DNA of 42,632 nucleotides from a virus: IMG/VR virus record IMGVR_UViG_3300025669_000073, positions 1 through 42,632 of that record. One strand, given 5' to 3'. Of the stretch, positions 12,465 to 33,505 are shown in pieces (position 1 is the stretch's first letter; every line of letters starts with the position of its first letter). A program made the position numbers and the translations under genes. A model generated the notes under the pieces. The model was not told the DNA's origin, did no database searches, and saw nothing but the letters and a program-made list of their open reading frames with translations.

Positions 12465-12479
12465 AGTGCCTTCTCTCCT

Positions 12480-12494
12480 CGCGGCTAGGCCGCG
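12480..12494 (-). other. Short perfect hairpin between scaffold and capsid genes
   Basis: The arms cgcggc and gccgcg pair over 6 bases with a three-base loop, directly after the scaffold stop codon and directly before the purine-rich ribosome site of the capsid gene. It could modulate capsid translation or message stability. Confidence 0.45.
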
Positions 12495-12500
12495 CGCTCG

Positions 12501-14033: not shown

Positions 14034-14070
14034 GGTGATGGTTGATCGCGCCCGATCAGGACTGATCACC
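14034..14070 (-). terminator. Nested inverted repeat at the end of the MuF-like gene
   Basis: An inner stem of tgatcg/cgatca with a four-base loop is enclosed by a second pair ggtgat/atcacc. The structure spans the stop codon of the MuF-like gene, so it is partly coding. It could attenuate transcription between portal/MuF genes and the highly expressed scaffold-capsid genes. There is no U tract. Confidence 0.45.
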
Positions 14071-15024: not shown

Positions 15025-15069
15025 TTGCTTCTCCACAACATAACGAGGGCCGCCAGGAAGGCCCCCGCG

Positions 15070-15267
15070 CTACACAGTAGCGCTACCGGCGTCAGGTCGA
15101 TCAAGAGGTTCCGCCGGGGCGGGCAAGCCAAGCTCGCGATGTAGTCGCGCCTGAAGTCGCGCGAGCATGGCGCGGTACGCAACGGACAGTCGCGCATTCG
15201 ACTCCGCTAGTGACCGCGCTTCCCATTCGGCCGGCTCATCGTGGCTAGTCGTCTTCGGGCTTGCCAT
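15070..15267 (-). CDS. Small helical protein between portal and MuF (65 aa)
   Basis: The gene begins inside the 3' end of the portal gene, at ATG 15267 with GAGGTG upstream; an ATG four codons earlier overlaps that ribosome site and is less likely. The protein is mostly one predicted helix (EARSLAESNARLSVAYRAML and onward, rich in Ala, Leu, Arg) with a Pro-rich end. Size and place suggest an accessory head or scaffold-like peptide. The family is not recognised. Confidence 0.5.
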   Translation of the reverse strand: MASPKTTSHDEPAEWEARSLAESNARLSVAYRAMLARLQARLHRELGLPAPAEPLDRPDAGSATV

Positions 15268-17071: not shown

Positions 17072-17542
17072 CTACATTTCCACGACGTCGGGATAGCCAC
17101 CGTTCGGGGACGCCCCCGTGGCGGCGCCTGCGTTGCCCGCGACGACGGCCTTCGCCTTGCAGATCGCCCAGCGCTCGCGAACGAGTGTCGGTAGCTGCCC
17201 GACGCCTCCGGCGGCGCGGATCGCGCGCAGCAGAGAATCGTTGTAGATCGTGCTCTCGACGGCGTCGGCGGCGATGTAATCCGACGCGGCCTGTACGACC
17301 GCGTCGTCCGATGTGCAGTCCACGCCTTCGAGCCAGTTCGGAACGTAGCTATCCGTACCCGCGGCGCGCTTCGCTGCCCTCCGAAGGGTGCCGTCGATCT
17401 TACTCCGCAGGTACACCTTGCGCTCATCGTCGGTCGGTTGGATCTTGGATGGCTTGCCCGCTGCCTTCGACAGCGGGTCAATCCCCAGTCCGACGCGGGC
17501 CGCCCCGTGCATGCGTTCTTTCGCGCTCATGCGGTCTTTCAT
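17072..17542 (-). CDS. Unknown protein between giant gene and portal (156 aa)
   Basis: ATG at 17542 has GGAGG 5 bases upstream; a longer frame begins inside the previous gene. The N-terminus is basic (MKDRMSAKERMHGAARVGLG), the middle helical with DERKVYLRSKIDGTLRRAAK, and the C-terminus Gly/Ala-rich. A basic N-terminus and head-gene context would suit a DNA- or capsid-binding virion protein. The family is not recognised. Confidence 0.5.
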   Translation of the reverse strand: MKDRMSAKERMHGAARVGLGIDPLSKAAGKPSKIQPTDDERKVYLRSKIDGTLRRAAKRAAGTDSYVPNWLEGVDCTSDDAVVQAASDYIAADAVESTIYNDSLLRAIRAAGGVGQLPTLVRERWAICKAKAVVAGNAGAATGASPNGGYPDVVEM

Positions 17543-17561
17543 GGTGCCCTCCCTGGTGCCC

Positions 17562-17903
17562 CTATGGCTCGATGTCATGGTCTAGGATTGAGACCACGCG
17601 GTCTCCGAGCAGGTCCGTCCGCAGATCGCCGCCGGCCGCGAACCGTCCATGCTGGTGAGCCAGCGCGGCCGTGATAACCTCTGCGCTTCCTAGCTCCGCC
17701 CCCACGGCGTCGAAGTCCGGGTCTTCGTCGATGTAGGGCCCGAAGGCCAACCCATCGCCTTGCTTGAACCCTGCGTCACGGAACAGCGCCTTGATCGGCC
17801 ACCACCATACACCGAAGTAGCGGTAGAAGAATGGATCGCTTTGCAGCAGGAGCGCGGCCTGTTGCAGCCGCGGATCAAGTAGTTCATACGCCGTAACGGC
17901 CAT
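17562..17903 (-). CDS. Unknown small protein after the methylase-helicase gene (113 aa)
   Basis: A clear ribosome site (AGGAGG, 5 bases before ATG 17903) and tight spacing on both sides support a real gene. The protein has an aromatic-rich stretch (DPFFYRYFGVWWWPIKALF), then an acidic segment with GPYIDEDPDFDAVGAEL and histidines (ALAHQHGRF). The W-rich part might be a membrane-interfacial or protein-contact helix, but it is not a long enough hydrophobic span for a transmembrane segment. The family is not recognised. Confidence 0.5.
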   Translation of the reverse strand: MAVTAYELLDPRLQQAALLLQSDPFFYRYFGVWWWPIKALFRDAGFKQGDGLAFGPYIDEDPDFDAVGAELGSAEVITAALAHQHGRFAAGGDLRTDLLGDRVVSILDHDIEP

Positions 17904-17912
17904 CGTGGCCTC

Positions 17913-20900
17913 CTATCGCCGTGCAGCGGCGCGGCGCGTGCCCGCCGCTGCCAGTGCGAGTCTCAGTGATACCGGGTGACCAAACGCCTTCTCGGCGGGG
18001 TGCGGCACCTCGGTCTGCCACTTCTGGTAGACGTTGGCGGCCGACCGGGTCTCGCCCCAGTAGCTTTTCAGTGTGTCGAGTAGCTTCCGGGTGTCGGGGT
18101 CGTCCTTACCGCTGGCCCGGACCGCCGAGTCAGGGTCGCGCCCGCCGCTCTGCGCTTCCTGCGACCGCTCATAGACCTTCTCCTGGAGGGCCTTGAATAC
18201 AAGCTCCCGGTCCGCGGCGGTCGGAAGCACATGCCGCTCGTTTGGCTGAAGCTCCGTGCGGGAATTGACCACGCGCGTTTTTCCGCCGTTGGTCACTACC
18301 CATGTTCGCTCTCCGTAGACGGACGCCTTGCGCCGCTCCCTCTCTTCCCAGTCCTGAATCGCGTCCGACGCCGCGGCGATCTGGGCGTCGGGGACGAAGC
18401 GCAGATCCGACAACGCGCCATGCCACCACTTGTCCTCGCCGGGCTTGCCTAGCAGGCTTTCGATCTCGGCCTTCCCGTCGTAGGGTGCCGAGGCCGCCCC
18501 GAGCGTCAGGGCGTGGATCTCGTACTTCTGCGTGTCTTTAGGACGGTACTCATTCGGGACGATGATCGAACCGTCCCGCAGGTTTTCCAGGGTGAGTGTC
18601 ATCGTGTGATTCGGGCTGCCCAGGAAGTGAACCGTGGCGCGGTTCTGCTCCGCCTCGACGTAGTCTACTACGACCTTCTTGGGGTCCTTGTAGTAGCCCG
18701 ACCCGGTCACCTCGAACATCGTCCCCTCGCGCACGAACACGCCGGAGTCGTGGTCCCAAAGCATCGGTTCCTTCACCGCAAGAAGATCCTTGTGCTTCCA
18801 GTGCTCGAGCCGCGCGAGGCGCCGCTCATCGACCTCGACGCGCTGCACGGCGGACTTGTGAGCGTTCGAGCTGGGCGCGGTCCTGCGTATCAGGGCGCGG
18901 GACTTCTGGACGCGCGACCACAGGTCGTCCGCCACGTCCTGTTGCTGCTCAATCTCGCGCTTCGCAAAGGCCCTCTTTGCGACGCCGAGCGCGGCACGGG
19001 CGGCTTCCGGGTCTTCTGCGAAGTACGCGAGCATCTCTTCCATTTCCATACCAGGGTCACCGAAATCGACCATCTCAGAGCCGGAGAATAGCGCTTCCTG
19101 CCACGTAGCCTTGCCGCGGACGTTCTGGGCTCTGATACCCTCTGCCGAGCGCTCTGCGAAGTAGTCGTGAATCCGCACGTGCCCGATCTGGTTACCCTGC
19201 CGCACGCCGCGCCCCTCGCGCTGGTGCATGGAACCGGGCTCCCAGCGCTGGTCAAGGTGATGAATGTCCGAACACCAGTCCTGGAGATTGATACCCTCAC
19301 CGGCCGTGGCGGTGTTGCCGATCACGATCCGAATGTCGCCGGCCCTGAAGGCGTCTGCGATGGCCTGACGGTCCGCGCTGCTAGGCGTGACCTTCGCATT
19401 GATGATCGCGATCTGGTCTTCCGGGATGCCCTGCTCTATCAGGTGTTGTTTGATGCGCTGGTGGCTCGTAGTGCGCTCTGCGAAAATGATCTGCCCGGTT
19501 TTGATGTTGGTACCGTCCACATCGACGCCGGCCTTGTAGACCTCGGAGGCGGCTTTGGCGAGCGCACGGTACTTCGGAGACCGCTTCCAGTGATCCTTGG
19601 GAATCGGAAGGTTCGTCAGCGGGTTCTCGTCGGCGTCCTCCCCGACGTTTTCGACCTTGCCCTTGCGCTCTGCAAGTAGGTCCATATCCATCGCGACGCC
19701 CTCCATTTTCGAGAGGCATCGACCTAGCTCCGCGATGACGTTTATGTCCTGGGCCTTCGCCTCCTGGCGGGACATATGCTTGAGTGTATCGACGTACTCG
19801 CGAATGGCCGTCGTAGCCGCTTGCTGATCGTCGTCCATGGCGATCTCGTGCGTGACGCGGGAGACGGTCGGGACTTCCAGGCCGACCTCTGAGGCCGTCT
19901 TGCGGTCCATGGCGCGGCCCATGAGGATCCGCAACTCGTCAAGGTTCTGGAACCCCACGAGCGTTGGTTTCATCTCGACTTCACCGGCGAGCGACAACCC
20001 CTGGCGGTCCTCAATCTGGCAGTAGCGGTTCACGAAGGCGAAGGGGGTCTCGATACCGAGCGTCCGGAGCAAGGCCGGGTCGGTCTGGGCGAAGAGGTTG
20101 TACAGCTCCATTGGCGAGTTTTTGCAAGGGGTCGCCGTCATGTAGAAGACGCCCTTCTCGTCGCCGCGTTGCTCGCGCATGAAGCGGCACTTTTTCTCCA
20201 TTTGGCGGGCTCGAATCGACTCCGCCCGGCCGCCCATGTTCGCAACGCTTCCGGGCTGGTCGGGGTCAACGGCCGTGTAGAGGTTCTTGTAGGCGTGCGC
20301 TTCGTCCACGATCATGTTGCGGATTCCGAGACTATCCCAGTCGATTCCGCGCGTAGCCTCCGACTCTTCCCCGTAGGAGAGCTTGTCGGCCCGCGCCGTT
20401 TCGTTTCGGATGATCTCTTCGATGGCCTTCAGGCGGCGCGCGTCCTTTTTTGTATCGCCCTGCGACAGTCGCGCTGCGATGATCTCCAGACTCGCCAGCA
20501 ACGACTCTGCCTCTTCTTCGCTCACAGGGGCGGGGCCTGCCAGCGTCGCGTTGAAGCGCAGCCAGTCCCCTTCGGTGACCTTGACGCCGTCGTCCTCTTT
20601 CGAGCCGCTCTTCGCGTGCTTTTCCTTCAGCTCTTCGATGGCGCCCTTGCGGCGCGTCAGGATCTCATCCTGCGTCAGACGCTTGTCCGCGTTCTCCGAA
20701 AGCCTGATCGCGTTCGTCAGATCGTGCGTGCAGAGGATGACTTGATGCAATCCCGCCTGCACCTCCATGAGCTTCTTGGCCTTCTCGTCGGCGCTTTCCT
20801 CTACCCACGCGCCGGGCTTGCCGGTCTTCTTGTCGATCTTCTTAGCGTCCCACTTCAGGCCGATCATGAGCACGTCTACGCCGGGCGCCCAGACCTTGAA

Positions 20901-23900
20901 CTCTTCGTACCAGTTCGAGAGGGTCTGTTTCGGGACCGGGAGCATGGTCCGCTCGTTGCCCATCGCCGCAAGGTGCGCCGCGATCGTAACCCCGATGGGC
21001 GTCTTACCGAGGCCGACGTCGAGAGCGATGAGCCCGCGGCCTTCAGCAATCGCGCGGTTCGCGGAGCTGGCCTGGAAGGGGTACAGCTTGAGGTTGACCG
21101 CTTTCCCGCCCTCTGTCGCGGCCCGCTTGCGGGTGCCCTTCAGGCGCCGCTCGAGCTTCGCTTTCTTCTGCGGGTCGCTCTGCGCCGCGATCTTCCCCTC
21201 CAGGGTCACGATGGCTTCGTCGAGGGTCTGATTGTTGCGGCCCTTGGGTACCGGGTCTTCGTTGCTGTAGGCGACCGGCGTCCACGCCCCGTAGATCGAC
21301 GAGTAGGTTTGCTCGACGAGCTGCCGCAGATCGTCCTGGCCTGCGAGCCAGTCCTTGAAATGGTCGCGGTGCATCGACATTAGTTCCTTCTGGCCCTCAC
21401 TCCCGAGCGGCACGCGGTTCAAGTGGCGCAGGAGCGTCCAGAGGATCTCGTAGTTCTGGTGGGTGATCTCGCTTCGGTTCTGCCTGTCGAGGCCGTGAAT
21501 GTCGGTGATGGTCCCGTCATTGACGATCGTGATCTTTGCCGCCACGTTCTCGCCGTAGCCCATGCCCCTTACAACGTGCTGGAAGTAGCCGGTGAGCACT
21601 TCGTCAGGCATCCAGTCGGCGCGCATATCGATCCGAATCTGGTCAAAATTCATCTCGTGCGTGTTCGCCTCTAGGACCGCGATGGCCGCATCGTACTGCG
21701 CCGCTAGCTCCTGATTCGGCATGCCGGCGCGGGCCCTCTTGAGATCCTCCGCCTTGCCGATCAGGTTCCCGCTCAGGAAGTCCGCGCGATGGGACCACGC
21801 GCCGGGCGGATAGGGCTCCGGGAAGTAGTCAGTCGAAGCGACAAGCCACTGGCGGACTTCTGCCCCGCGGTGCTCATCGTCGCCGGTGCCCCCCGTCCAC
21901 TTCTCCAGAATGTCCGACACGCGAATGTCGCGCGACGTGTCGGCCAGATACTCCGTCACGCTCGACAGGCTCGAGGCGTCCGCGATCTCGCGCTTGCTGC
22001 GCTCCGCGGCGTTGGGCTCCCGGGTCAGGATCTCGGAGAACGAACCGTCCTTGCCGAACAGCATCATCATGTGCAGGAACGTCCTGCGCTCCGCGTCCCC
22101 CTTGGCCTTGCGCAGGGCCTTGACGCCCTTGATCCGATGGGGGTTCCCGTGGTCTTCGAGGTACTGACGAACCATCGGGCCTAGCTTCTGCTGTTGCTCG
22201 AGCGCCGCGATACGGTCCCCTTCGAGCATCGCGAGATTCAGCGCGGCGGACACCGCTGCAATCTTCTCGGCGTCCTCGACGGCGGCCGACGTGCCCTCTG
22301 AGTCGAGGTTGTGGACCTCTGGCAGTTTGTCCCGTGACAGCCACATACCGTCCGGCATGAGCACGTACTTGGTCCCGGTGGCGGGGTCATGGCGGGTGTC
22401 GCCGGGCTTGCTGATCGCGTAGGGCTTCTTGTTCGCCGCTGTGATCCTGTCGAGCTGTTCCCGCCCGCTCGCGAGCTTCTTGATCACGTCCCCGTCCGCG
22501 AAGGTCTGCGGGTCGCGCGTGGCGGGGTCCAGGAGCGTCGCGAGCGTCTCCGGCGTCATGCCGAACGGTGCGTCAGGGTCGCCCTTGCAGAGCGTCGAAC
22601 TGGACTGCTTGAGCCCCGTCAGGTTGCCGCCCTTGCCGCCTTCGGTGTAGACCTTGACGTTCGCGATGCTCGCAGCGATCCGCTCCCTCTCGTCATCGGT
22701 CTCCGCGACCTTCAGCGCCCCCTCGAGTTGTGCTAGGCGCTCATCGAACGTGGGCGGGCGGCTGAACTCCCCGAGCATATTCGCCGCGCCGCGGCCGGAG
22801 AAGTAGTGACCGGCGACAAACTCGTCATCGTACAGGCCCATCTCAGTGAGCTGAGTGGTGGTGGCGCCCTGGAGTCTCTCGCGAAGCTCCCGCGGGTGCG
22901 CCCGGAAGATCATTATGTCAGCGCCCATGGCGCAGCCACCTTGCTTGAACACCTCTGTCGGTAGGCGGTAGGCGGCCACTAGCTGGCCCTTTGTGAGCAA
23001 GCGCTTGCGCCACTCGCGAATGGCCCCGGGGCCCTCTCCGGCCCCGAAGCCGGACACCGAAACGCCCATGCTGGACGCCGGCATGAGCATGGCGACGTAC
23101 CCGTTGTCCGCGAGCTTGTCCAGGCCCATTTCCATGGAGTATCGCTCGAGAGATACCGTGTCGCTCTTGTCGCCGGACGCCTTCGCGTTGACCCGCTTCC
23201 CGTAGGGCGGGTTGCCGACAATGAAGTCGAATTCGCGGCCATCGGTCAGAGCGAAGTCGCTTATGTCCGACTGCCAAATCTCATGCCCGTTGGGCTCGTG
23301 AAGCACCTTCGCGATCTCGACGGCGGGATCTAGCTCGCCAGCCGGGCGCTCCGTCAGGGCCATTTGGCCCAACTCGACGCCGATGCAACGGACACCTTCG
23401 GGGGCTTGTTCGATGAATGAGCCAGATCCACAGCCGGGCTCCAACACGCGATGCCCGGGTCGCAGTCCTAGATCCTTCAGCGCTTCCCACATTGCGGCGA
23501 CGACTGTCGGGGGGGTGTAGTATTCCGTCAGGGATCCGGTGCCGCTCGCGCCGCCCCACCCGCTGTATCCTCGTAGTATTTCCCGTTCGCCCGCGGTAGG
23601 CGCTCGCCCGGCCTCTATCAGGTGCCGGGCCATCGCAGTCGCCGTCAGGTTCCCTTTCTCGCGGTTGACCATGCCCCAGCCTTTGCGCCCGCCGAACTGC
23701 GGGGCATTCTTGACGGCCTTGATCGTGCCTGCGAGGCGTTGCAGGAGTAGCGCATGCGCCTGTCCGCGGTCGATCGGCTCGACACGTACCCACGCGAGGC
23801 TTGCGTGGTCCCAGGCGTACATGCGGCCACCCTCGGTCCGCGTGGAACCGTGAGCGGGCTCAGGGACCGGCACGTCGCCAGTCTTGCGGGGCCGCGGCGC

Positions 23901-25739
23901 CTTCGACTTCTCCGGGGACACCTTTGGACTCGCCTTCGCGTCAGGCGGCGCCTGGGGCTCTGGCGGTACCGCGCGAGTGACCGCCTTGCCTTCGGGAGCG
24001 TTGCGGCCGACCGGGCTCAGCTTTCGCAGAGCTGCCCCCAGCGCGACCTTGACGATCTTGCCGAGACTCTTGCGGCCCTTCACGTCCTCTGCGTCCGTGG
24101 CTGCATTCTTCTCCGCCGGGGTCGGCTTTTTGAGCGTGGGGACGGCCGGTGTGCCCGTCTTGAGCGCGCGGGCCTCGCGGCGCTTCGCGGCCTTCTCCGC
24201 CTTGCGCGCAGTAGCCATCATATCGTTGATCTTGGTCTCGGTCTCCAAGTCCAGAACCCGCTCGAACACGTTGGGCGCCACTTCCAGCGCCTTCGGCTCC
24301 GCGGGCTCCGCCCCCGCCGGGGTCGGCTCGCGGTCCTCGACGTGGGGCGCGGGCGGGGTAGCCAGCGCTGCCAGGATCGGCCCATGGTCTCCGCCCCACT
24401 GCGCTGCGGGGATCTCCCCGAACCCGTAGGACAACACATTGTCGAGCATCATCCGGGCGAATCCGGGGTCCGGCTTGGTCGAAGTGTGGGGCCCGTAGGG
24501 TCCGCCGGCCGTGGTCTGGTCAAGGATAAGCTGGCCTTCAGCGGTGATCTTGAAAATCACCTCAGAATCTACGACCAAGTCTCCGTTCATCTCGCGGTAG
24601 TGGGTGAGCATGAGCAGGGGCCCGTGGCGCTCAATCGTCAGAGGTAGGAAGGGCTCGTTGTAGAGCTTCAGGTAGAACGATGAGCCCACCGACAGGGCCT
24701 TCGGCGGGAGACCTAGCTGGTTGAACAGGCGGGTGACGGCCTTTGCTCCGGCCCCGGATTGCTTCGACGTGGGCAGGAGCGCGGTCCCGCGCATGTTCTC
24801 CAGGCTCCCCATATCCATGAGCCTCCGGGTCTGCGTCTCGTTCATCTCGTAGAGGCTGATCGGACGGCTCCCGGGACTGGGGAACGTGATCGTCTCCGCC
24901 TTGCGGTCCCAGATTCCCTCTGGCGCACACTTCGCAGCAAAGTAGCGCCACGCCGCCGAGATCCGCGACGCGAGGCCGGTCCACTCGGGCATGACGATCC
25001 CGCTGCCCTTGGAAGCCTCGCCGGCCTTGCGGGCGGCTTCCTCGCGCTGGCGCTGTTCGGCGTCGGTGAGCGGCCGGTCGGTGGCGGTCGCGGTGTCCTG
25101 CTCAGGCTTCACCTCTGCGGGCTCGGCCACCTTGGCCGCGCCGATCTGCTCGCGGACCGCCTCGAGGCGGTCTCCGAGGGCGGACAGTTCCGCCGTCTTC
25201 GTCTCCCATTCGGACGTGTTGTCGGGATCGTTGTGCGAAAGCCAGTCCAGGGCCGCCATGATCTCGCGGCGCCGGTTCTCCAACTGCGCCAGCGTCGGCA
25301 AGCGGGCCGTCTGGTGGGCCGCGGAAGGCTCCCGCTTCTTTTTGCCGGCCTTCCCTGCCTCATCGGTCGAAGCGCTTGCGGGGGCCTTGCCGGCGTCCTC
25401 ATCGGCCTTCGGCGTGCTCGCCAGCGCCGTCGCGATCTGTTCGAGCTTGCGCTTGGCGATGTCAACGAAGTGCTCGAACGCGGACCGGGTCTGCGTGCGG
25501 CGCTTCCCGAGCGACGCTTCAGACACCACTCCCTTGCGGCGGGCCTTCAGGTCCTCTGCGTAGGTGTAGGCCCACCTCATCTTGCCGGCGATCATGCGCT
25601 TGACGCGCCGAATGTACTTGTGTGCGCGGAAGCCGCCGCCGTCACCGAGGGCCTTTGTCAGCTCGTCCGGCTCACCGAGGTACACGTCGCCGTAGTCCTC
25701 ATGGGCCCGAAGTACGCGCAGGAGAATGTCGTCTCGCAT
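17913..25739 (-). CDS. DarB-like giant protein: N6-adenine methyltransferase fused to SNF2-type helicase (2608 aa)
   Basis: Domains in order: an HKYIRR...YTY motif (residues 40-60); a charged, helical linker; a DUF6908-like segment with LTHYREMNGDLVVDSEVIF (about 350-430); an N6-adenine methyltransferase with YSGWGG, EYYTPP, motif I EPGCGSG (767-773) and motif IV NPPYG (843-847); a long connector; and a superfamily-2 helicase with DVGLGKT (1574-1580), DEAH (1812-1815), TATP (1868-1871) and EGRGVRQG (2175-2182). The key residues of both enzymes are present. Methylase-helicase fusions of this kind include phage P1 DarB, an internal head protein that protects injected DNA from type I restriction. 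Lying between terminase and portal genes fits a packaged protein. Start ATG 25739 has GAGG upstream. No target-recognition domain is obvious. Confidence 0.85.
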   Translation of the reverse strand: MRDDILLRVLRAHEDYGDVYLGEPDELTKALGDGGGFRAHKYIRRVKRMIAGKMRWAYTYAEDLKARRKGVVSEASLGKRRTQTRSAFEHFVDIAKRKLEQIATALASTPKADEDAGKAPASASTDEAGKAGKKKREPSAAHQTARLPTLAQLENRRREIMAALDWLSHNDPDNTSEWETKTAELSALGDRLEAVREQIGAAKVAEPAEVKPEQDTATATDRPLTDAEQRQREEAARKAGEASKGSGIVMPEWTGLASRISAAWRYFAAKCAPEGIWDRKAETITFPSPGSRPISLYEMNETQTRRLMDMGSLENMRGTALLPTSKQSGAGAKAVTRLFNQLGLPPKALSVGSSFYLKLYNEPFLPLTIERHGPLLMLTHYREMNGDLVVDSEVIFKITAEGQLILDQTTAGGPYGPHTSTKPDPGFARMMLDNVLSYGFGEIPAAQWGGDHGPILAALATPPAPHVEDREPTPAGAEPAEPKALEVAPNVFERVLDLETETKINDMMATARKAEKAAKRREARALKTGTPAVPTLKKPTPAEKNAATDAEDVKGRKSLGKIVKVALGAALRKLSPVGRNAPEGKAVTRAVPPEPQAPPDAKASPKVSPEKSKAPRPRKTGDVPVPEPAHGSTRTEGGRMYAWDHASLAWVRVEPIDRGQAHALLLQRLAGTIKAVKNAPQFGGRKGWGMVNREKGNLTATAMARHLIEAGRAPTAGEREILRGYSGWGGASGTGSLTEYYTPPTVVAAMWEALKDLGLRPGHRVLEPGCGSGSFIEQAPEGVRCIGVELGQMALTERPAGELDPAVEIAKVLHEPNGHEIWQSDISDFALTDGREFDFIVGNPPYGKRVNAKASGDKSDTVSLERYSMEMGLDKLADNGYVAMLMPASSMGVSVSGFGAGEGPGAIREWRKRLLTKGQLVAAYRLPTEVFKQGGCAMGADIMIFRAHPRELRERLQGATTTQLTEMGLYDDEFVAGHYFSGRGAANMLGEFSRPPTFDERLAQLEGALKVAETDDERERIAASIANVKVYTEGGKGGNLTGLKQSSSTLCKGDPDAPFGMTPETLATLLDPATRDPQTFADGDVIKKLASGREQLDRITAANKKPYAISKPGDTRHDPATGTKYVLMPDGMWLSRDKLPEVHNLDSEGTSAAVEDAEKIAAVSAALNLAMLEGDRIAALEQQQKLGPMVRQYLEDHGNPHRIKGVKALRKAKGDAERRTFLHMMMLFGKDGSFSEILTREPNAAERSKREIADASSLSSVTEYLADTSRDIRVSDILEKWTGGTGDDEHRGAEVRQWLVASTDYFPEPYPPGAWSHRADFLSGNLIGKAEDLKRARAGMPNQELAAQYDAAIAVLEANTHEMNFDQIRIDMRADWMPDEVLTGYFQHVVRGMGYGENVAAKITIVNDGTITDIHGLDRQNRSEITHQNYEILWTLLRHLNRVPLGSEGQKELMSMHRDHFKDWLAGQDDLRQLVEQTYSSIYGAWTPVAYSNEDPVPKGRNNQTLDEAIVTLEGKIAAQSDPQKKAKLERRLKGTRKRAATEGGKAVNLKLYPFQASSANRAIAEGRGLIALDVGLGKTPIGVTIAAHLAAMGNERTMLPVPKQTLSNWYEEFKVWAPGVDVLMIGLKWDAKKIDKKTGKPGAWVEESADEKAKKLMEVQAGLHQVILCTHDLTNAIRLSENADKRLTQDEILTRRKGAIEELKEKHAKSGSKEDDGVKVTEGDWLRFNATLAGPAPVSEEEAESLLASLEIIAARLSQGDTKKDARRLKAIEEIIRNETARADKLSYGEESEATRGIDWDSLGIRNMIVDEAHAYKNLYTAVDPDQPGSVANMGGRAESIRARQMEKKCRFMREQRGDEKGVFYMTATPCKNSPMELYNLFAQTDPALLRTLGIETPFAFVNRYCQIEDRQGLSLAGEVEMKPTLVGFQNLDELRILMGRAMDRKTASEVGLEVPTVSRVTHEIAMDDDQQAATTAIREYVDTLKHMSRQEAKAQDINVIAELGRCLSKMEGVAMDMDLLAERKGKVENVGEDADENPLTNLPIPKDHWKRSPKYRALAKAASEVYKAGVDVDGTNIKTGQIIFAERTTSHQRIKQHLIEQGIPEDQIAIINAKVTPSSADRQAIADAFRAGDIRIVIGNTATAGEGINLQDWCSDIHHLDQRWEPGSMHQREGRGVRQGNQIGHVRIHDYFAERSAEGIRAQNVRGKATWQEALFSGSEMVDFGDPGMEMEEMLAYFAEDPEAARAALGVAKRAFAKREIEQQQDVADDLWSRVQKSRALIRRTAPSSNAHKSAVQRVEVDERRLARLEHWKHKDLLAVKEPMLWDHDSGVFVREGTMFEVTGSGYYKDPKKVVVDYVEAEQNRATVHFLGSPNHTMTLTLENLRDGSIIVPNEYRPKDTQKYEIHALTLGAASAPYDGKAEIESLLGKPGEDKWWHGALSDLRFVPDAQIAAASDAIQDWEERERRKASVYGERTWVVTNGGKTRVVNSRTELQPNERHVLPTAADRELVFKALQEKVYERSQEAQSGGRDPDSAVRASGKDDPDTRKLLDTLKSYWGETRSAANVYQKWQTEVPHPAEKAFGHPVSLRLALAAAGTRRAAARR

Positions 25740-25747
25740 GGTTGCCT

Positions 25748-28700
25748 CTACAGCGTGGGTTCTGAATCCCTGTAGTATTCGCTCTTCGCGGTGTTCGATT
25801 CGCGGTATTCCGGATCGTGGTACCAGTCAACGAACGACGCTTCATTCTTCCAGCGCGGGATCTCCGGCTGCGAGTCGTCTACCAGCTGCGCGAAGCCCTT
25901 GTCGGCCTTGATCTTGGCGATCCAATGGTCGCGGTCCCCGATCTCGTCATGCAGGTCGGGGTGCTTGTCCGCAAGCACCGTTGCCATCTTCTTTGCCGCG
26001 GTCGCGTTTCGGAATCTGACGGGCGCCATATCTCCGTTCGGGCCATAGACGCGCCGATCCTCCGAAACCACGAAACCCTTGCGCTGCATGCCGCGGACGT
26101 TCTTTCGGTCGGTCCCATCACTCACGGACGCCCAGGCTTTCTTGCTCCACGTCTTTCGGGCCGGGTCGGCCGGCGGGGCGTGCTTGCCGATCTGCTCTGC
26201 CCCGTCCGCCGCTACCTTCGATTCCTCGCCATGATTCTGCGTTGCGTCGAGGGTCTTCGCGGCGCTCGCGTTGGGGGCGTGCTGCTCCATATACTCCGCG
26301 CGCTTCGTAGCGTCGGACAGGGTGAATGCCGGCGAGCCCAGCGTTAGACCGCTTCCCGCGTGAACCACGCTCCACCGGCCGTCGTCTTCGATCTTCTCGA
26401 CGATGTAGTTCCCTTTTCTGTGGCCTTCGTACTCCTGATCCCATCCGACCCCGTTGTCTGCCTTCGTGATCTGGTGCGTAGCCTTCTCGCCCCACCCTTC
26501 AGGGACGGGCTCGGCGCCGGTCTTCGCAGCGGCCTTCTCGCCAGCCGCTTTCATCTTTGCAGCGGCCCCCTCGACGTTGGCCGCCTGCACCACGCCCTCT
26601 GCCTCTGCAATGGCCGCGTCGCGGTCCGCCGCCGGCATGCCAGGGCCACCGGCCGATAGCTTCGCGGCAATCGCTCGTAGCTTCTCCGCTACCGCTGGCG
26701 CGTAGGTCTTCCCCTTCTTGCCCTTGCCGGGCTTGGCGACCATGGCGGCCATCTTCTCCACGCGAGCGACCGCGCGACCGTGGGCGGCGGCGCCCTTGTC
26801 CGTGGTCACGTCTGCGGTGGCATCCTTGACGACGGTGCGCGCCGCGGGCTCAGCCTCTTCGTCGTCATCGTCGAAGGTCGGCATCTTCCCGCCGAACGCT
26901 GCGAACTCCGCGGCCAGCGGGTCCACCTTCGGGGCTTGCTTCGGTGCGGCGACTGCGGCGGCCTTCATGCGATCCGCGGCGGTGCCCTTGCGGGTGGCGG
27001 GGCCGCCACCCGCCCCGTCAGGGGCAGGGGCGGGTGTGGGGGTGGGCTTTGTAGCGGGGGGTGTGCCCAGGAGAGCGGTCACGGCCTCTTTCGTCAGCGT
27101 CTTCGGGCGCTCATCCTGCATGAACTTCGCAGCGCCCTTGTCGCGCAAGGCTCGCGCGCTGTCGGTCAGGAACCTCTCGTCGCCTGTCGATTCGTAGGTT
27201 CGTAGGTTCGAGGCTGCTGCGTTCACCCTCCCTTGCAGCGCCCGCAGGGCCGCCCTGTCGGTCTCGCTGGCGCCTTCCATGGCGGCGGTCATCGCCACCA
27301 CGGTGCGGTCCCCCTGCGTGGACGGGTGGTCCGCTCCGAACCTGCCCGCCTTCGCCGCTTGCTTGCCGGCGGCGTACTCGTCGGACGCGGCCCTCTTGGC
27401 CTCCGGGTCTTCCGGCTCTAGGTGCCCCTTCACCCGTGCCTTGGCTTCTGCCAGCGTCTCGCCTTCGAGGATGGGGCCCATGGAGGTGTTGCGTGAGTCT
27501 GCCTCGCTCAGCTTTTCGATGTATCTCTCGGCTGCCGCCTTCGTCCTGTGCTTCCTGACGGTGGCCTTGCCGCCCTCTCCGACCGACGCCGTTACGTACT
27601 CGGGTTCGCCGCCACCCGCCGCCGCCTTCATCTTCTGCGCAGCGGTCCTATCATCCTTCGCCGCCACGTTCGGATCGGGGTTCTCTGGCGGTTCGATGCC
27701 AGCGGCCCAGTAGACGGCTTTCGCTTGAGCATCGGTGAGCTTGTTCGCCTTGACGGCCTTCTCTACTGCAACCGTGGTGACTTGCGCCGGGGAGTGCTCC
27801 GGCTTCGCTCCGGCCGCGACGGCGTCGTCTTCGTGCCCGTGCATCGCCACGGACTGGCTCAGGTACCCGTCACGCGCATCGACGCCGGCCTCGCTGATCG
27901 CGGACGCGGCTTCCCGCGCTGCCTGAGCGTTCGGGCCAATGCGGAACTTCTCTGCGTACTTCGCCAGTCCGGTCGCGTGCTCGCGCAGCTTGTCCGCGTA
28001 CCGCCCGCCCCGCTCCATATGCGTATCGTGGGCGTTCTCCGACTCCGCAAGGGCGTCCTCAATCCCATCCTTGCGATACTTCCCGGGCGCCATGAAGTCG
28101 CTATCCAAGACTGCGCTATCGTGCAGTTCAATCGCCAGATTGGCGCGGTCTTCGTGCGGCGTGTTCCCGCCCGTGTGAAGCGAAGAATCCCGCCACGAAA
28201 GGTCGTCGAGCGGGTCTTTCGCTGCATTGGCGGATTTGCCTTCCTCGACGATCATGTCGTGCTCCGAAGGCGTCACGATTGTGTCGTGAGACTCCGCCTC
28301 CGGGCCCGCCGTCCTGATCTCGGATTCCAGACTCTCGACGTGCTCATTCAGCGCGTCCGTGTACGCCTTCTCTTTTTCGTCCGCGTCCGCGCCATAGAAG
28401 CCGTGATACCCTTCGTTCGCTTCAGCGGCGGCCTTGATCTTCAGCGCGTGAGCCATCTCCGACGCGAGGGTATGGTGCGCGGTCGTGAACGCTTCCGATT
28501 GCTTCGATCCGCCGCCGGGCGTTCGGTGGGCGCCCGCTTCGTGCAGCCTGCGGATCTGGCCTTGAATGTCCGTGATTTTCCCCAGGGCCTCATCAGCCAG
28601 GGCTCCGCGGTCCGTGTCCCTCAAGAACCGCTCATGCGCTCGCCATTGCGCGAGGCGCTGATTGAGCATGTTGACGCCCTCGCGACCCGTGACTACCTGC

Positions 28701-31700
28701 CCGGTCGCCCGGTCTATCGCGGTCACGGGCCCGCCGTCCCGACGCGGCTTTGTGGCGCCGAAAATGTCCCCGGTCCTACTGACGCGCTTCGCCTGTTCCT
28801 TGGCGCCGCTGGCGGCTCCTCGGAGCTTCGCGGCGGCCTTACTCTCGGCCTTCATCTTCTCCGCCACTACGGCGGTGGCGGCGGTGGCCTTCTCCTGCCC
28901 GGCGGCTTTCTTCCCCCAGTTACCGGCCAGCGCCCGGTCGGCGTCGGCCATTTTCTTGACATTTGCGATTGCCTTTTTGCTCACCGGCCGCGGGAACCCG
29001 GTGGACTCCCCGCTGGTGAGTTGGGCGTCACCGTCCGACAACTGGCCCGCAAGGGCCGCCCATCGATCCATGGCGGCTGCGCTTCGCTCCCAATCCTTCG
29101 CCGCTTGGCGGAGCGTCGCCGTGCCAGCGGCGTCCCCAGCATTCCGCACCTTCTGCTGTGCGTCGGTGTCTGGGCGAGCCGACAGGAATTCCGCATCGAC
29201 GGCCTTCCATTCCTTCAGCTTCGCAGCTCGCGAGGCGCCCGCGTCGGCCCCGAGCGCCGTGTCGGCCGCGGCGCCCATCTTCTCCGCCGCCGTGGGCTTG
29301 GGCGTCTTCAGGGCGGCAATGCGACCGGCGAGCGCCACGGTATGCTCCGCATGAGCCCTCCGGGCCTTGTCGGCCTTCGCCTTGTCCGCGTCCGACCAGT
29401 CCAGGGGGAGCATGACAAGGCTGTCCGATATGGCCTTGTGGCGCTTCATCGCATCGCGAATGTCGCCTTCCGTCTTGTAGCTCTCCGGCGGCTTCATTTC
29501 CGGGGCGTACTGAAGCGTATCGTCCACGGTGTACGAGTCGTCGGCCGCTTTCTTGTCGGGCTCGTACCCCCACGCCGTAGCCATCTCGACGCCCTTCGGC
29601 GTCAGTCGGTAGTCTTGCGTTCCGGCCTTCCGGTCCGCGCCTGTGCGCTCCGCGAGCCCGGCGGCGACAAGGGCTTTCGCGGCTTTCTTCTCTCCTGCGG
29701 AAGATACGCCGGACGATGCCCCTGGCCCGTCCTCGCTGCGCCGATTCGATAGAATTGCCAGCAACGTACTCGCCATGCCGGTAGGCTTGGCCGGGCCGTC
29801 CGCGGCGGTCATCTTGTCGGCAGCGGTCGGCTTCGGCGCCGCGTCGGGAGTGCGGATCTCCGCCTCTAACGCTTCGGACATAGACCGCACGGCATTGTTC
29901 ACGCCCGAGGTCAGTTGTTTGCGTTTCTCCCGGAGCGCTTCATTCCTCTTGTCGCGCTCCGCCTCGTTGCTCATATCCGGGTTGTAGTAGCTGGATTCCG
30001 CCGTTATCCGCTCGACAGCGCCTTGCAGGGCCGCACGGACAACCTTGCGGGCCTCTGCCGCGCTTCGGGGCGGTCTGATACTTCCGATCAGCGCTCCGCC
30101 GGACGTGTAGCTTGGCGTGTCTCCGTCCCACACCTCTCCGCGGGCCGTCCGGGGCTTGCCCGAGACGATCCCCCACTTGCCCGCAGAATTCGCCACGCCG
30201 CTGCCGAAATCCTTGAGAGCAGCGCGCGCCAGTGGAGCCGCGACGAACCCGTCAAACTTCACGAGATGGCCGACCCCGGCCGCTTCGGCGGCCTCCGAAA
30301 CCGAGCGGGCCACAGACTGGGCCTTCGGGGCTTCTGGCTTCGGAGTCTCGCCCTCTGCGCCCTTGCCAGTTGGCGCGGGCTCGCGTGCCTTGTCTATCTC
30401 CGCATTGACGCGCTGCCAGAGGCGGGTGAGCCCGAGCGACGTCTTCGACGAGTAGCCCGCCTCTTCCGTTTCTCCGCGCCGCTTGTGCTCTGTGGAATTC
30501 TCGTCTTCTCCGTTGGACTCTTGCGTCAGGAAGTCCGCCCACCGCTGCATATCCTTGGGGTCGGACGGGAGTGTCAGCACGCCCTTGCCGGCCGCTGCGG
30601 CAATCTCCCGGGCCGTGTCGCCCTCTGGACTGTCGTCCTCGAGGTACTTATCCGCGAGAGTATCCTTGATCCACCCGCCCCCGAATCCGCCCATGCGAAT
30701 CTTCGGCCCCTTGCCGGCCTCGCCGCCCTTCACGCCCGTTGTCCGGGCCGGCGGCTCCGTCTGCGGCGCGGCCTTCATGCGATCCGCGGCGGTGCCCTTG
30801 CGGGCCGCTGCGACCGATTCGTGTAGGTAGGCGTCGTGCAGCTTGTCAACGATCCCCAGAACCGTCTTGCGGTCGTATTCCCGCTCGACGGCGCCCGCCA
30901 GCTTCGCAGCGTCGGCCCACTCGCCATCCTTCAGCGCTTGCACCAGGGCCTTGGCATCGGCCGCAGGGATGCCCCCGCGGCGCTCCAAGCCTTTGATGCT
31001 CTGCTCGGCCCCCGCGAGTGTCACTTCGCCGGCCGTCTTCTCAGGCGCCCCGTAGACCCGCTCATGGTCCGCAAGATCCTTTAGGCGCCCGGCCTTCTGT
31101 TTCGTGGACCCGTGCTTCTGCGAAGCGTCCACCTCACCGCGCAGCCGGCGGTGGCGGGCCGTGAGGCTATCGCGCTGCTCGTAGTGCATGAGCGTGCGCA
31201 GGTTCGCTTCGGTCATATTGATGATGTTGCCGGACTCATCGTGCTTGACCGTGATCATGCCCTTGTCGGCATCGACCTTGGATATGTGGTAGTGCCCGCC
31301 GTGCGCCTTGAACGAGGATCCGACCTTCAGGTGCTCTGAGTGAACGATCCCGTGCTTCGTGCCCGGTACGGAGTACCAGTAGCGGTAGCTCTGTTTGCCG
31401 CGCGCGTTCGTGTAGGGCGTGCGTTTGATGTACTTGTGGCTCGCGCCCTTCACGAGTCGGAGATCCTCGTCTACCTCGATTGCGATGAGCACGGCGCCGT
31501 CCGGGATCTCGCCCAGCGCGAGGGCGTCTCGGTTGACCATGGCCTTTGCCATGTTCATGCGCCCGACCATGGCCGCGGCTTGGTTCCCGCCGATGGGTTC
31601 CGGTATCCGCCAACTCTTCGCCGCTTCGTCCGGCCCCTTCTTGGCCCTCGCAGGCGGCTTCCAGGGCTCGCTTGGATCCTTCGTGATCCGGCCCCGGAGT

Positions 31701-33505
31701 ACCGGCGGCGGACCGCCGAAGTCAAACGTGTGGCCCTGTACCTTGTCTGTCCCGTAGGCTTCCGCGAATTTGCCGAACTGCCGCTGCCCCATATCGAACA
31801 TCGTAGACAGGCGGGTGTCGTACTCCGATTCTTCGATGGTCACTCTGAGCCCGCCGTCCTCGAACCCAATGTCGTGGACCGAACCGCCGAGCATGCCGAG
31901 CGTGAACTTCGGCGTCAGCCCGGACACTTCCTGCGAGGCATTCAACAGGGCCTCGCGCATCGGGGGTGTTAGTGGCGCCTCGCGGATCGCTTGCTCCAAC
32001 TCGCCCTTGATCTCCGCGACCCGGGCCTTGTCGCCGGCAATCTGCGCTGTCTGGATTGCTTCCAGCTTCGGGATACTGTTGGGGACCAGCCTGAATAGCT
32101 GCGGTAGCTTGTCCTGTGCGTACAGGCTCAGGTTGTCCGCAACGCGGACCGCGGACGTCATCGCATCCTTCTGCCAGTCGATTCCGGCGTCATCGTGCGT
32201 GGCTATCCGGTGCTCTATGTCGGCAAGGGCCGGCTCACCGAAGACGCTGGCGTAGCGGTCGGAATAGTGATCACGGAACAAATGCACGCCGAACTCGTGA
32301 TGCCTGCCGGTCTGCGCGATGTCCTCGCGAGCGGGACCGGCCGTGTAGCCGATGTCGTGGTAGAGCTGCGTCATCATTCCTTGCAGGCGGTCATTCGCAG
32401 AGAATGAGGCGGTCCCGGACGCCTCGAGCGCGTCGAGTACCTGATTCTGCGTGCGAATGTTGCCGGCAAGGTGCCGGATCCCGTGGTCTCCGAGCTGGCG
32501 CCTGGACGCTTCGTGAGTCTGGTAGGCAATGTCGCGCGACACGTCCTGCAACATCGAATCGAAGTCTTCGGCGGGCCCATTGATCGAACCCTCGAGGTGC
32601 GCTTGCTCTGCGAGCGAACGCATGGTGTCGAGCGTCGAGTGCGCCATATGGACTTCGTCGCCGGCCATGGCGGAAGCGTACCGCCCGAGCACGGCCTTGG
32701 CATTGCGCACTGCGGCACCGATCTTGCCGGCGTTGACGTTGCCGGAGACCTTCTCGAGCTTCGGCGGGCGCTTGTCCCCGATCTGCGCTAGCCGCGCGTC
32801 GCGGCCGTCTCCCCAGTCGTCTAGGCCGTCCGGCCGCCCCGGGAAGTCCTTTCGCTTTGTCGGCTCTGGCTCTGGCAGGGGTTCGTAGTCAGTGTTGTAG
32901 TCCTCATCGTCCATATCGAAGTCATCGTCGGCACCCTTGGGCGCGGGCTTCTCGCCACCCTTGGGCGGCTTCGTTCCGCGCTCTCCGAGCGGGATCGTCG
33001 CGTCCCCGTCCTGGCTGTGATCTCCCGTGTTGGCATACTTGTTGCCGGGGTCCGGCTTCGGCGCCTTGCTGGCCTCCAGCGCTTGCAGAGCTTCCGCGAA
33101 TTGCTCGTTCGTCATGGTCTTCGGGGTCGCGCTGAGACCAGATACCGTGACCTTCCCGTCGCCGGCCGCGTCGATCTTGCCTTTCTTCCCGCCGATCTTG
33201 AACTTGGCCCCCGCTACCAGTTTGGCGGCCCCTCGGAGCGCTCGCGATACGGCGCCCGGACGCTTGACCTTGGGACGCATACCGAGCGGAACCATGGCGA
33301 TTCCGTCCTTGCTGTGGTTTCCGGGGTGGTCCTGTCCCTCTTCGTAGATGTAGTCGAAGCCCCCGCCGGGCTTGGGGATGCGCCGGAGATACTTGTGCCC
33401 GGGGCGCTCTCCGCCCGGACCGCCGCCGCCGCCCATGCCCCCAGACGATGAGGAAGAGCCGGCGCTTCCGGCGGCCTTGCGGAGACGGTCACTCACTCTG
33501 CTCAT
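25748..33505 (-). CDS. Giant multidomain virion-type protein with HD phosphohydrolase domain (2585 aa)
   Basis: The start is ATG 33505 (MSRVSDRLRK). The N-terminus has a Ser/Gly-rich stretch and GHKYLRR...DYIY (37-54). The motif HSKDG/HSQDG...PLG occurs twice (about 62-76 and 162-176). Residues about 320-480 form a canonical HD domain: H345, H383-D384 (YHDIGY), H402-H403, H437-D438 and D457 (VRVADN). HKYIKR...YRYWY recurs at 690-711, before a small beta domain. A winged-helix-like part covers about 1240-1310 (KALVAAGLAERTG...YRLTPKGVEMA). Long Ala/Lys-rich linkers carry TAADRMKAA-like motifs with M at 910, 1232, 1410, 1959 and 2180. HD proteins hydrolyse phosphate esters of nucleotides; the substrate is unknown. 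Probably injected or internal, by context. Confidence 0.65.
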   Translation of the reverse strand: MSRVSDRLRKAAGSAGSSSSSGGMGGGGGPGGERPGHKYLRRIPKPGGGFDYIYEEGQDHPGNHSKDGIAMVPLGMRPKVKRPGAVSRALRGAAKLVAGAKFKIGGKKGKIDAAGDGKVTVSGLSATPKTMTNEQFAEALQALEASKAPKPDPGNKYANTGDHSQDGDATIPLGERGTKPPKGGEKPAPKGADDDFDMDDEDYNTDYEPLPEPEPTKRKDFPGRPDGLDDWGDGRDARLAQIGDKRPPKLEKVSGNVNAGKIGAAVRNAKAVLGRYASAMAGDEVHMAHSTLDTMRSLAEQAHLEGSINGPAEDFDSMLQDVSRDIAYQTHEASRRQLGDHGIRHLAGNIRTQNQVLDALEASGTASFSANDRLQGMMTQLYHDIGYTAGPAREDIAQTGRHHEFGVHLFRDHYSDRYASVFGEPALADIEHRIATHDDAGIDWQKDAMTSAVRVADNLSLYAQDKLPQLFRLVPNSIPKLEAIQTAQIAGDKARVAEIKGELEQAIREAPLTPPMREALLNASQEVSGLTPKFTLGMLGGSVHDIGFEDGGLRVTIEESEYDTRLSTMFDMGQRQFGKFAEAYGTDKVQGHTFDFGGPPPVLRGRITKDPSEPWKPPARAKKGPDEAAKSWRIPEPIGGNQAAAMVGRMNMAKAMVNRDALALGEIPDGAVLIAIEVDEDLRLVKGASHKYIKRTPYTNARGKQSYRYWYSVPGTKHGIVHSEHLKVGSSFKAHGGHYHISKVDADKGMITVKHDESGNIINMTEANLRTLMHYEQRDSLTARHRRLRGEVDASQKHGSTKQKAGRLKDLADHERVYGAPEKTAGEVTLAGAEQSIKGLERRGGIPAADAKALVQALKDGEWADAAKLAGAVEREYDRKTVLGIVDKLHDAYLHESVAAARKGTAADRMKAAPQTEPPARTTGVKGGEAGKGPKIRMGGFGGGWIKDTLADKYLEDDSPEGDTAREIAAAAGKGVLTLPSDPKDMQRWADFLTQESNGEDENSTEHKRRGETEEAGYSSKTSLGLTRLWQRVNAEIDKAREPAPTGKGAEGETPKPEAPKAQSVARSVSEAAEAAGVGHLVKFDGFVAAPLARAALKDFGSGVANSAGKWGIVSGKPRTARGEVWDGDTPSYTSGGALIGSIRPPRSAAEARKVVRAALQGAVERITAESSYYNPDMSNEAERDKRNEALREKRKQLTSGVNNAVRSMSEALEAEIRTPDAAPKPTAADKMTAADGPAKPTGMASTLLAILSNRRSEDGPGASSGVSSAGEKKAAKALVAAGLAERTGADRKAGTQDYRLTPKGVEMATAWGYEPDKKAADDSYTVDDTLQYAPEMKPPESYKTEGDIRDAMKRHKAISDSLVMLPLDWSDADKAKADKARRAHAEHTVALAGRIAALKTPKPTAAEKMGAAADTALGADAGASRAAKLKEWKAVDAEFLSARPDTDAQQKVRNAGDAAGTATLRQAAKDWERSAAAMDRWAALAGQLSDGDAQLTSGESTGFPRPVSKKAIANVKKMADADRALAGNWGKKAAGQEKATAATAVVAEKMKAESKAAAKLRGAASGAKEQAKRVSRTGDIFGATKPRRDGGPVTAIDRATGQVVTGREGVNMLNQRLAQWRAHERFLRDTDRGALADEALGKITDIQGQIRRLHEAGAHRTPGGGSKQSEAFTTAHHTLASEMAHALKIKAAAEANEGYHGFYGADADEKEKAYTDALNEHVESLESEIRTAGPEAESHDTIVTPSEHDMIVEEGKSANAAKDPLDDLSWRDSSLHTGGNTPHEDRANLAIELHDSAVLDSDFMAPGKYRKDGIEDALAESENAHDTHMERGGRYADKLREHATGLAKYAEKFRIGPNAQAAREAASAISEAGVDARDGYLSQSVAMHGHEDDAVAAGAKPEHSPAQVTTVAVEKAVKANKLTDAQAKAVYWAAGIEPPENPDPNVAAKDDRTAAQKMKAAAGGGEPEYVTASVGEGGKATVRKHRTKAAAERYIEKLSEADSRNTSMGPILEGETLAEAKARVKGHLEPEDPEAKRAASDEYAAGKQAAKAGRFGADHPSTQGDRTVVAMTAAMEGASETDRAALRALQGRVNAAASNLRTYESTGDERFLTDSARALRDKGAAKFMQDERPKTLTKEAVTALLGTPPATKPTPTPAPAPDGAGGGPATRKGTAADRMKAAAVAAPKQAPKVDPLAAEFAAFGGKMPTFDDDDEEAEPAARTVVKDATADVTTDKGAAAHGRAVARVEKMAAMVAKPGKGKKGKTYAPAVAEKLRAIAAKLSAGGPGMPAADRDAAIAEAEGVVQAANVEGAAAKMKAAGEKAAAKTGAEPVPEGWGEKATHQITKADNGVGWDQEYEGHRKGNYIVEKIEDDGRWSVVHAGSGLTLGSPAFTLSDATKRAEYMEQHAPNASAAKTLDATQNHGEESKVAADGAEQIGKHAPPADPARKTWSKKAWASVSDGTDRKNVRGMQRKGFVVSEDRRVYGPNGDMAPVRFRNATAAKKMATVLADKHPDLHDEIGDRDHWIAKIKADKGFAQLVDDSQPEIPRWKNEASFVDWYHDPEYRESNTAKSEYYRDSEPTL
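26958..26994 (-). repeat. 37-bp exact repeat, distal copy (RKGTAADRMKAA linker)
   Basis: Identical over 37 bases to 30768-30804, 3.8 kb apart in the same gene and frame. It encodes the linker motif at residues 2175-2183. Confidence 0.92.
30768..30804 (-). repeat. 37-bp exact repeat, proximal copy (RKGTAADRMKAA linker)
   Basis: Pairs with 26958-26994. It encodes the linker motif at residues 905-913 of the HD-containing giant protein. Codon-level identity with diverged flanks points to recent copying or gene conversion of a linker unit. Confidence 0.92.

Follow-up and report, generated by a model that had tools for sequence, protein, structure and literature searches.

Why should a phage keep two giant genes, of 2585 and 2608 codons, between the genes for its terminase large subunit (TerL) and its portal protein, and where do their products go? 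The question is raised by the window analyzed here, which is a whole linear IMG/VR record of 42,632 bases in which end repeats are absent. To our knowledge, injected proteins and their selection for the head are known for a few phages only: T4, P1, N4, and SPN3US-like phages. The original prediction described one giant as a DarB-like methylase-helicase and the other as an HD-containing multidomain protein, interrupting the usual terminase-portal order and injected with the DNA as a two-protein defense-evasion system. Here, we review the genes and their domains, a short motif near both N-termini, and the gene order in related phages, and weigh the explanations that these observations allow.

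The Two Giant Genes and Their Neighborhood

Both genes start with ATG on the minus strand, are co-directional and adjacent, and are open throughout, as originally described (Table 1). An alternative GTG start at 33571 would lengthen giant 1 to 2607 aa. Together they occupy 15,585 of the 42,632 bases (36.6%, close to the 37% first given), which is a share of the window and not of the genome because the record is linear and lacks end repeats. GC content at the three codon positions is 0.65–0.67, 0.46–0.50, and 0.81–0.83 in the giants and equals that of the TerL, portal, and sheath genes, while the antisense ORFs have a codon-position GC unlike that of the giants. This agreement and the existence of homologues establish both giants as real genes and argue against artefactual frames in high-GC DNA. 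The giants are also not duplicates of each other, as nothing aligns past the tag described below. The same proteins are encoded with 100% identity on a 39,281-bp contig from metagenome 3300035698, the only contig found when viral contigs were scanned with the single sequences of giant 1 and the portal.

Transcription runs leftward through nearly the whole window in the order TerL, giant 1, giant 2, Ulx-like ORF, 168-aa ORF, portal, MuF-like protein, protease-scaffold, major capsid protein, and tail genes up to the sheath, so that the Ulx-like and 168-aa ORFs are the two small genes between giant 2 and the portal. The tail sheath gene indicates that the phage has a contractile tail. Gaps of 8–16 bases separate TerL, the giants, and the Ulx-like ORF, and the following ORFs overlap or almost abut, which places the giants in a late head operon. 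The predicted head-module location is upheld, with TerL (phrog_38) and portal (phrog_12) as the flanking genes. Homologues of the MuF-like protein also come after the portal in four related loci (L092, L099, L104, and L105). Elsewhere in the window, two adjacent paralogues among the tail-side genes (7052–7564 and 7574–8074; MDNxRLQHKRDRxSASxGVA...) represent a tandem duplication, and CACCGC and GGGGCC simple repeats at the contig end (positions 1–60) perhaps mark an assembly break.

Table 1. Features of the two giant genes and of the neighboring head genes (aa, amino acids of the protein concerned).
Feature	Position in window	Strand	Evidence or remark
Terminase large subunit (TerL), upstream border	33522..35435	-	phrog_38 7e-28; NCBIfam termin_lrg_T7 2e-13
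Giant 1, 2585-aa HD-domain multidomain protein	25748..33505	-	no whole-length family match; no cysteine
Giant 1 aa 8-11, LRKA, candidate prohead-protease site	33473..33484	-	motif scan
Giant 1 aa 34-56, first hairpin tag HKYLRRIPKPGGGFDYIYEE	33338..33406	-	tag HMM
Giant 1 aa 305-605, HD phosphohydrolase-type domain	31691..32593	-	18-sequence alignment A6, AlphaFold, Pfam HD, Foldseek
Giant 1 aa 684-783, LVKG, second hairpin tag HKYIKR...YRYWY, and beta-rich-looking segment	31157..31456	-	homology to L033/L018 proteins
Giant 2, 2608-aa DarB-type methylase-helicase	17913..25739	-	phrog_11801 6e-183; phrog_10089 DarB-like 2e-69; Pfam N6_Mtase, SNF2-rel_dom, Helicase_C
Giant 2 aa 27-30, LTKA, candidate prohead-protease site	25650..25661	-	motif scan
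Giant 2 aa 37-62, hairpin tag HKYIRR...WAYTYAE	25554..25631	-	tag HMM
Giant 2 aa 348-403, DUF6908	24531..24698	-	PF21849 2e-10
Giant 2 aa 738-948, N6-adenine methyltransferase, NPPY aa 843-846	22896..23528	-	PF02384 2e-7; invariant motif
Giant 2 aa 1551-2190, SNF2-type helicase (DVGLGKT, DEAH, QREGRGVRQG)	19170..21089	-	PF00176, PF00271
Ulx-like protein, 113 aa	17562..17903	-	phrog_1629 3e-8
168-aa ORF, LSKA at aa 36	17072..17578	-	motif scan
Portal protein, downstream border	15245..17053	-	phrog_12 5e-32; SPO1-like phages 31-33%
MuF-like minor head protein	14056..15036	-	read from C-terminal pattern; no family match
Head maturation protease and scaffold-like tail fusion	12501..13937	-	phrog_1028 1e-18; 8 LxK[AS] sites
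Major capsid protein	11046..12464	-	phrog_752 4e-45
Capsid protein LAKS, aa 33-36, predicted cut site	12357-12368	-	L and K invariant in four divergent capsid proteins

Giant 2 and Its Ulx-Like Neighbor

The best profiles for giant 2 are a DNA methyltransferase family (phrog_11801) and a DarB-like family (phrog_10089). Its NPPY tetrapeptide is of the NPP(Y/F) kind that belongs to gamma-class adenine methylases, and the C-terminal part has the Walker A sequence, DEAH box, and motif VI (QR.GR) of an SNF2/SF2 helicase. All of these catalytic motifs are retained in an alignment with the proteins of P1, Bordetella phage PHB04, and Thermus phage Lalka8, so the predicted intact motifs and DarB likeness both stand. 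Among isolate phages, PHB04 comes closest (30% identity across 55%), and the Ulx-like ORF of the window also matches the neighbor of DarB in PHB04. Ulx is encoded beside DarB in P1, PHB04, and Lalka8, and 11 of 25 distinct DarB loci show the same adjacency. DarA, Hdf, DdrA, and DdrB were not recognized among the genes scanned in the window, which is a fragment. To the extent that sequence allows, giant 2 and the Ulx-like ORF can be assigned to the DarB/Ulx kind.

In P1, DarB and Ulx are virion proteins, Ulx helps in the localization of DarB, and 30 N-terminal residues of DarB are enough to direct a reporter into the capsid (PMC9024508). P1 DarB is packaged and works in cis on the injected DNA (PMC5512222, PMC9024508). 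Virions of Burkholderia phage JC1 contain a DarB-like protein (PMC9144972), and packaging of DarB and Ulx has already been proposed in the paper on the Lalka phages (PMC11437467).

Giant 1 and Its HD Phosphohydrolase-Type Domain

As a whole, giant 1 has no significant match in Pfam, PHROGs, NCBIfam, PADLOC, PDB sequences, or 50,697 phage records. Residues 282–618 align with giants in the related loci L018 (E 2e-33) and L033 (9e-33), and an alignment-based scan for this region retrieved 17 viral contigs and one Planctomycetota MAG contig; the domain was found in uncultivated phages only and in none of the isolate phages of the collection searched. In the alignment of 18 sequences (A6), the positions LGDHG..H, HD.GY, H, H, and DN never vary, the pattern of an HD metal phosphohydrolase (H37, H41, H79-D80, H98, H133, and D153 in A6 numbering), and Pfam HD matches 4 of its 18 members (best 6e-7). 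AlphaFold gives a confident all-helical core for residues 305–605 (pLDDT 81, pTM 0.81), replacing a poor earlier model built from three sequences (pLDDT 60). A Foldseek search with this domain, one of the checks initially suggested, places HD-fold proteins on top, namely DupA phosphodiesterase, exopolyphosphatase, PDE4D, PH0347, and HD-GYP, with weak E-values of at least 5e-3 (best 5.5e-3). The invariant ligands, profile matches, and model agree with the initial description of giant 1 as HD-containing, and the predicted fold class is credible.

Giant 1 contains no cysteine in 2585 residues, compared with a mean of 0.99% in the structural proteins and TerL of the window (P 7e-12). Several related cargo proteins are likewise low in cysteine, and the depletion is not uniform, as giant 2 has 11 cysteines. 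The virion polymerase of N4 may be a cysteine-free precedent; the paper found on it does not mention cysteine, and the argument does not rely on this precedent. A linker repeat, [GP]TAA[DEQ][KR]M[KTG]AA or a near variant, occurs in giant 1 at aa 906, 1228, 1406, 1955, 2176, and 2314 and divides stretches of the protein.

A Candidate Prohead-Protease Site

The portal, protease, and capsid protein of the window are related to those of SPO1/Herelleviridae-like phages. When four very different capsid proteins are aligned, the L and K of a short motif near the N-terminus are invariant. The motif was scanned as [LIVMF]xK[AS], written LxK[AS] here, with a predicted cut after K. PDB chain 9row, by sequence a capsid protein of the phi812 type, begins at S right after VVK, which identifies an LxK[AS]-type site as a maturation cut. 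This chain start is the evidence for the specificity, as our literature search found no paper directly on cleavage between K and S by SPO1-type proteases. The motif is enriched in the protease-scaffold of the window (8 sites compared with 1.6 expected, p 0.002), in the protease and scaffold of PHB04 (5 versus 0.8 and 7 versus 0.8 expected), and in those of SPO1 (5 versus 1.1 and 11 versus 1.1), and is absent from the eight tail-side proteins of the window.

Both giants carry such a site close to the N-terminus, LRKA in giant 1 and LTKA in giant 2, in keeping with the specificity that the capsid protein and scaffold suggest for the maturation protease. A site within the first 35 aa is expected by chance in about 10% of proteins, and in the giants only the N-terminal position is notable. 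Along their whole length the motif is not enriched (5 versus 7.5 and 7 versus 6.5 expected), which speaks against polyproteins cleaved throughout. The N-termini of DarB proteins were compared more widely, using the first 35 aa from 78 DarB loci of IMG/VR, with 15 independent N-terminus clusters. Of these clusters, 8 contain the motif, where the background is 8.3% (p 9e-6); the other 7 include some doubtful start calls. It occurs in 0 of 12 full-length P1-like DarBs, for which the protease cuts after E. Over all ORFs of the 78 loci, its density is 10.0 per 1000 at aa 1–10 versus 2.3 in shuffles, declining to about 3 per 1000 beyond. The head module of PHB04 (locus L003) also contains genes for an HD protein of the (p)ppGpp-hydrolase type, which has an FLKA site at its N-terminus, and for a serine/threonine phosphatase (11771–12349 and 12352–13044).

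Hairpin Tags behind the Site

Soon after the site there is a short hairpin-like tag, which occurs as HKYIRR...Y.Y, GGYRRR.G.GWEYWYP, and GKGKR.GTPGHYEYDYDE types. Two tags are present in giant 1 and one in giant 2. The second tag region of giant 1 is homologous to giants encoded upstream of DarB in L033 (41%, 4e-11) and L018 (35%, 3e-10). Among 27 hairpin tags in giants of five lineages, 17 have LxK[AS] at most 30 aa upstream compared with 10.7% expected (p 9e-11), although the copies come from few phage lineages and are not fully independent. A hairpin HMM built from all relatives without the window does not place the window tags above shuffles, and one built from the HKY and GKGKR types, again without the window, recovers them weakly. 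With this second HMM, the first tag of giant 1 ranks third among the window and 200 shuffles, with 8.7 bits compared with 8.6 for the best shuffle.

Several related loci carry such tags repeatedly. In L035 (17292–22988), a 1898-aa giant has four LLKA/LHKA sites with GKGKR hairpin tags at domain borders, and its motifs suggest two PP-loop ATPase modules, one GNAT-like module, and one zincin (HETTH) module. In L018 (16043–21649 and 6017–15121) and L033 (8621–19330), each giant repeats the tag PPGAGWxPIPGGKHGGYRRRxGxGWEYWYP two to four times. Several genes in L093 (4879–7099) and L098 (9470–16614), including one for a small separate HD protein, start with a different tag, (I)LKxNPCHxPxGSPxGGQFCS, and L090 has LLKGGPGSGN tags; these may be the address labels of other phage lineages.

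Gene Order in Related Phages

The gene-order comparison called for by the original prediction shows that the arrangement recurs in related contigs. L018 and L033 have the order TerL, a giant of 1265 or 1024 aa, DarB, HD giant, and portal; L105 has DarB, Ulx, HD giant, and portal; and in L035 the end of TerL is followed by other genes, DarB, Ulx, the portal, and the 1898-aa giant with four tags. Placing giants between TerL and portal is thus usual in this group and not peculiar to one genome. In P1, darB and ulx likewise lie beside the portal and protease genes, and the idea that the giants interrupt the usual terminase-portal order is not supported. The L105 locus (JALORE010000001.1) comes from a contig that was assigned by binning to a Planctomycetota MAG, which may hint at the host of the phage group, with a binning error conceivable.

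HD-domain giants or proteins were also found in about ten further loci without DarB within 10 kb, and in L093 the HD domain is a small separate protein. This distribution marks the HD enzyme as a movable cargo module; the two giants do not form an obligate pair, and the two-protein system first supposed is not supported.

Proposed Mechanism and Alternatives

The genes and domains, their position in the head module, the pattern of sites and tags, and the conserved neighborhood are computational observations. From them, we infer that both giants are probably cargo loaded into the SPO1/Herelleviridae-like head of a contractile-tailed phage and injected with its DNA, a reading to which we assign a probability of roughly 0.7. 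The N-termini of the giants would bring them into the prohead during assembly, and the prohead protease would cut after the K of the N-terminal LxK[AS], as in the capsid protein and scaffold. The mature giants would remain inside the head and travel through the tail with the DNA into the host. By analogy with P1 DarB, giant 2 would act there as a methylase-translocase and, together with the Ulx-like protein that may help to load it, shield the entering DNA from type I-like restriction. Giant 1 would deliver an HD metal phosphohydrolase and other domains; our guess is that this enzyme acts on a host nucleotide or phosphodiester substrate, either a defense signal or the nucleotide pool. Precedents for targeting and cutting are P1 DarB (PMC9024508), P1 DarA, whose N-terminus is cut by Pro (PMC12810830), and the ejection proteins of SPN3US (PMC10052503). 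The virion loading originally proposed for both giants thus gains in likelihood through the N-terminal LxK[AS], the shared hairpin tag, the lack of cysteine in giant 1, and the conserved gene order, and stays a prediction. Since both giants bear a short putative cleavage site like that of the shell protein, the packaging idea is directly testable.

The same observations could be read differently. Both giants could be late head-linked proteins that act in assembly or in the producing cell, by genome modification before packaging or control of head size, and are not injected. Their place in a late head operon with gaps of 8–16 bases accords with such a role, a methylase could work before packaging, and the P1 Dar proteins DarA and Hdf act in head morphogenesis (PMC12810830); this account is nevertheless unlikely given an N-terminal protease-site tag common to the capsid protein and to unrelated cargo proteins, and given the cis action of packaged P1 DarB on injected DNA. 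It is more doubtful still that giant 2 alone is packaged and that giant 1 is a mosaic gene with a different function, carrying its N-terminal LRKA and hairpin tags by chance or as remnants. The single short N-terminal site of giant 1 has a chance of about 10%, most of its 2585 aa are without a homologue, and its tag is weak in the window-free HMM; yet its second tag region is clearly homologous to the tagged giants upstream of DarB in L018 and L033, its HD domain is found in tagged giants beside the portal, and it has no cysteine. We hold it to be similarly improbable that the LxK[AS] pattern reflects shared descent of DarB N-termini instead of a functional site. One large cluster (LTKAQLALFDxPVxV...) is plainly homologous, but the site recurs in non-homologous N-termini (L018, L027, L050, L051, L060, L069, and the window) and in second helicases, portals, and MuF-like and capsid proteins, and in the capsid protein of the phi812 type the cut is known to fall at this site.

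A further alternative concerns the function of giant 1, whose HD domain could act on a host defense signal, a cyclic oligonucleotide or an alarmone, and so make it a direct counter-defense protein. HD-fold phosphodiesterases and nucleotidases are among the Foldseek matches, and the same module of PHB04 carries an LxKA-tagged HD protein of the (p)ppGpp-hydrolase type. The weak Foldseek E-values (best 5.5e-3) point to several HD subfamilies, however, and we regard this as a minority possibility.

Head-loaded, injected cargo is thus the preferred reading of both giants. A broader proposal, which we put forward tentatively and at somewhat less than even odds, is that uncultivated phages with SPO1-type heads, as a whole class, load their giant multi-enzyme cargo through a modular label, consisting of an LxK[AS] site cut after K and a lineage-specific hairpin, at the starts of cargo proteins and at some internal borders. 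In some giants the label recurs internally (four copies in L035 and four in L018), and once in the head such chains may be split into individual effectors. One such module would be the HD enzyme of giant 1, which in L093 is a small separate protein. If LxK[AS] is the address label of this head type, injected counter-defense proteins could be read from genome sequence, and the HD giants would add a new class of injected enzyme from phages without an isolate in the collection searched.

Comparison with Known Systems

The closest known system is DarB/Ulx of P1. In both, a methylase and an SNF2 helicase are joined in one giant chain, Ulx or a Ulx-like gene is directly downstream, and the genes adjoin those for the portal and the prohead protease. 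P1 DarB and giant 2 share 24% identity, and giant 2 is extended at its N-terminus by 690 aa that include DUF6908. The P1 capsid protein is cut after E120 and its DarB is without LxK[AS], whereas the cut predicted for the window is of the K type. Phage PHB04 has DarB-like, Ulx-like, and second helicase genes between the portal and the protease-scaffold-capsid genes, with LxK[AS] tags, but it lacks a homologue of giant 1, its TerL gene is elsewhere, and it has a separate RelA/HD cargo gene. In the uncultivated relatives (L018/L104, L033/L096, and L092/L105), a DarB giant and an HD giant are adjacent beside the portal and have repeated hairpin tags; unlike in the window, the HD giant comes after DarB, and the tag-plus-beta segment known from giant 1 belongs to a different giant located upstream.

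The internal proteins of T4 and the ejection proteins of SPN3US are comparable in that an N-terminal propeptide directs the cargo into the head and is removed by the maturation protease (PMC10052503, PMC9024508). The T4 and SPN3US proteases cut after E, in contrast to the predicted cut after K in the window. The polyvalent proteins (Iyer et al. 2017, PMC5512222) resemble the giants as multidomain chains of giant size near virion genes, with a methylase-helicase dyad and predicted injection. The dyad itself is counted as polyvalent (PMC5512222), and both giants fit this group: giant 2 combines DUF6908, methylase, and helicase in one chain among virion genes, and giant 1 combines HD and tag domains. 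Neither the HD domain of giant 1 nor an N-terminal capsid-protease tag is part of that description, and the main text of PMC5512222 contains neither of the terms "HD domain" and "capsid targeting". The new parts of the locus are the HD giant and the K-type protease tag, and the locus otherwise belongs to the known polyvalent/Dar type of phage cargo.
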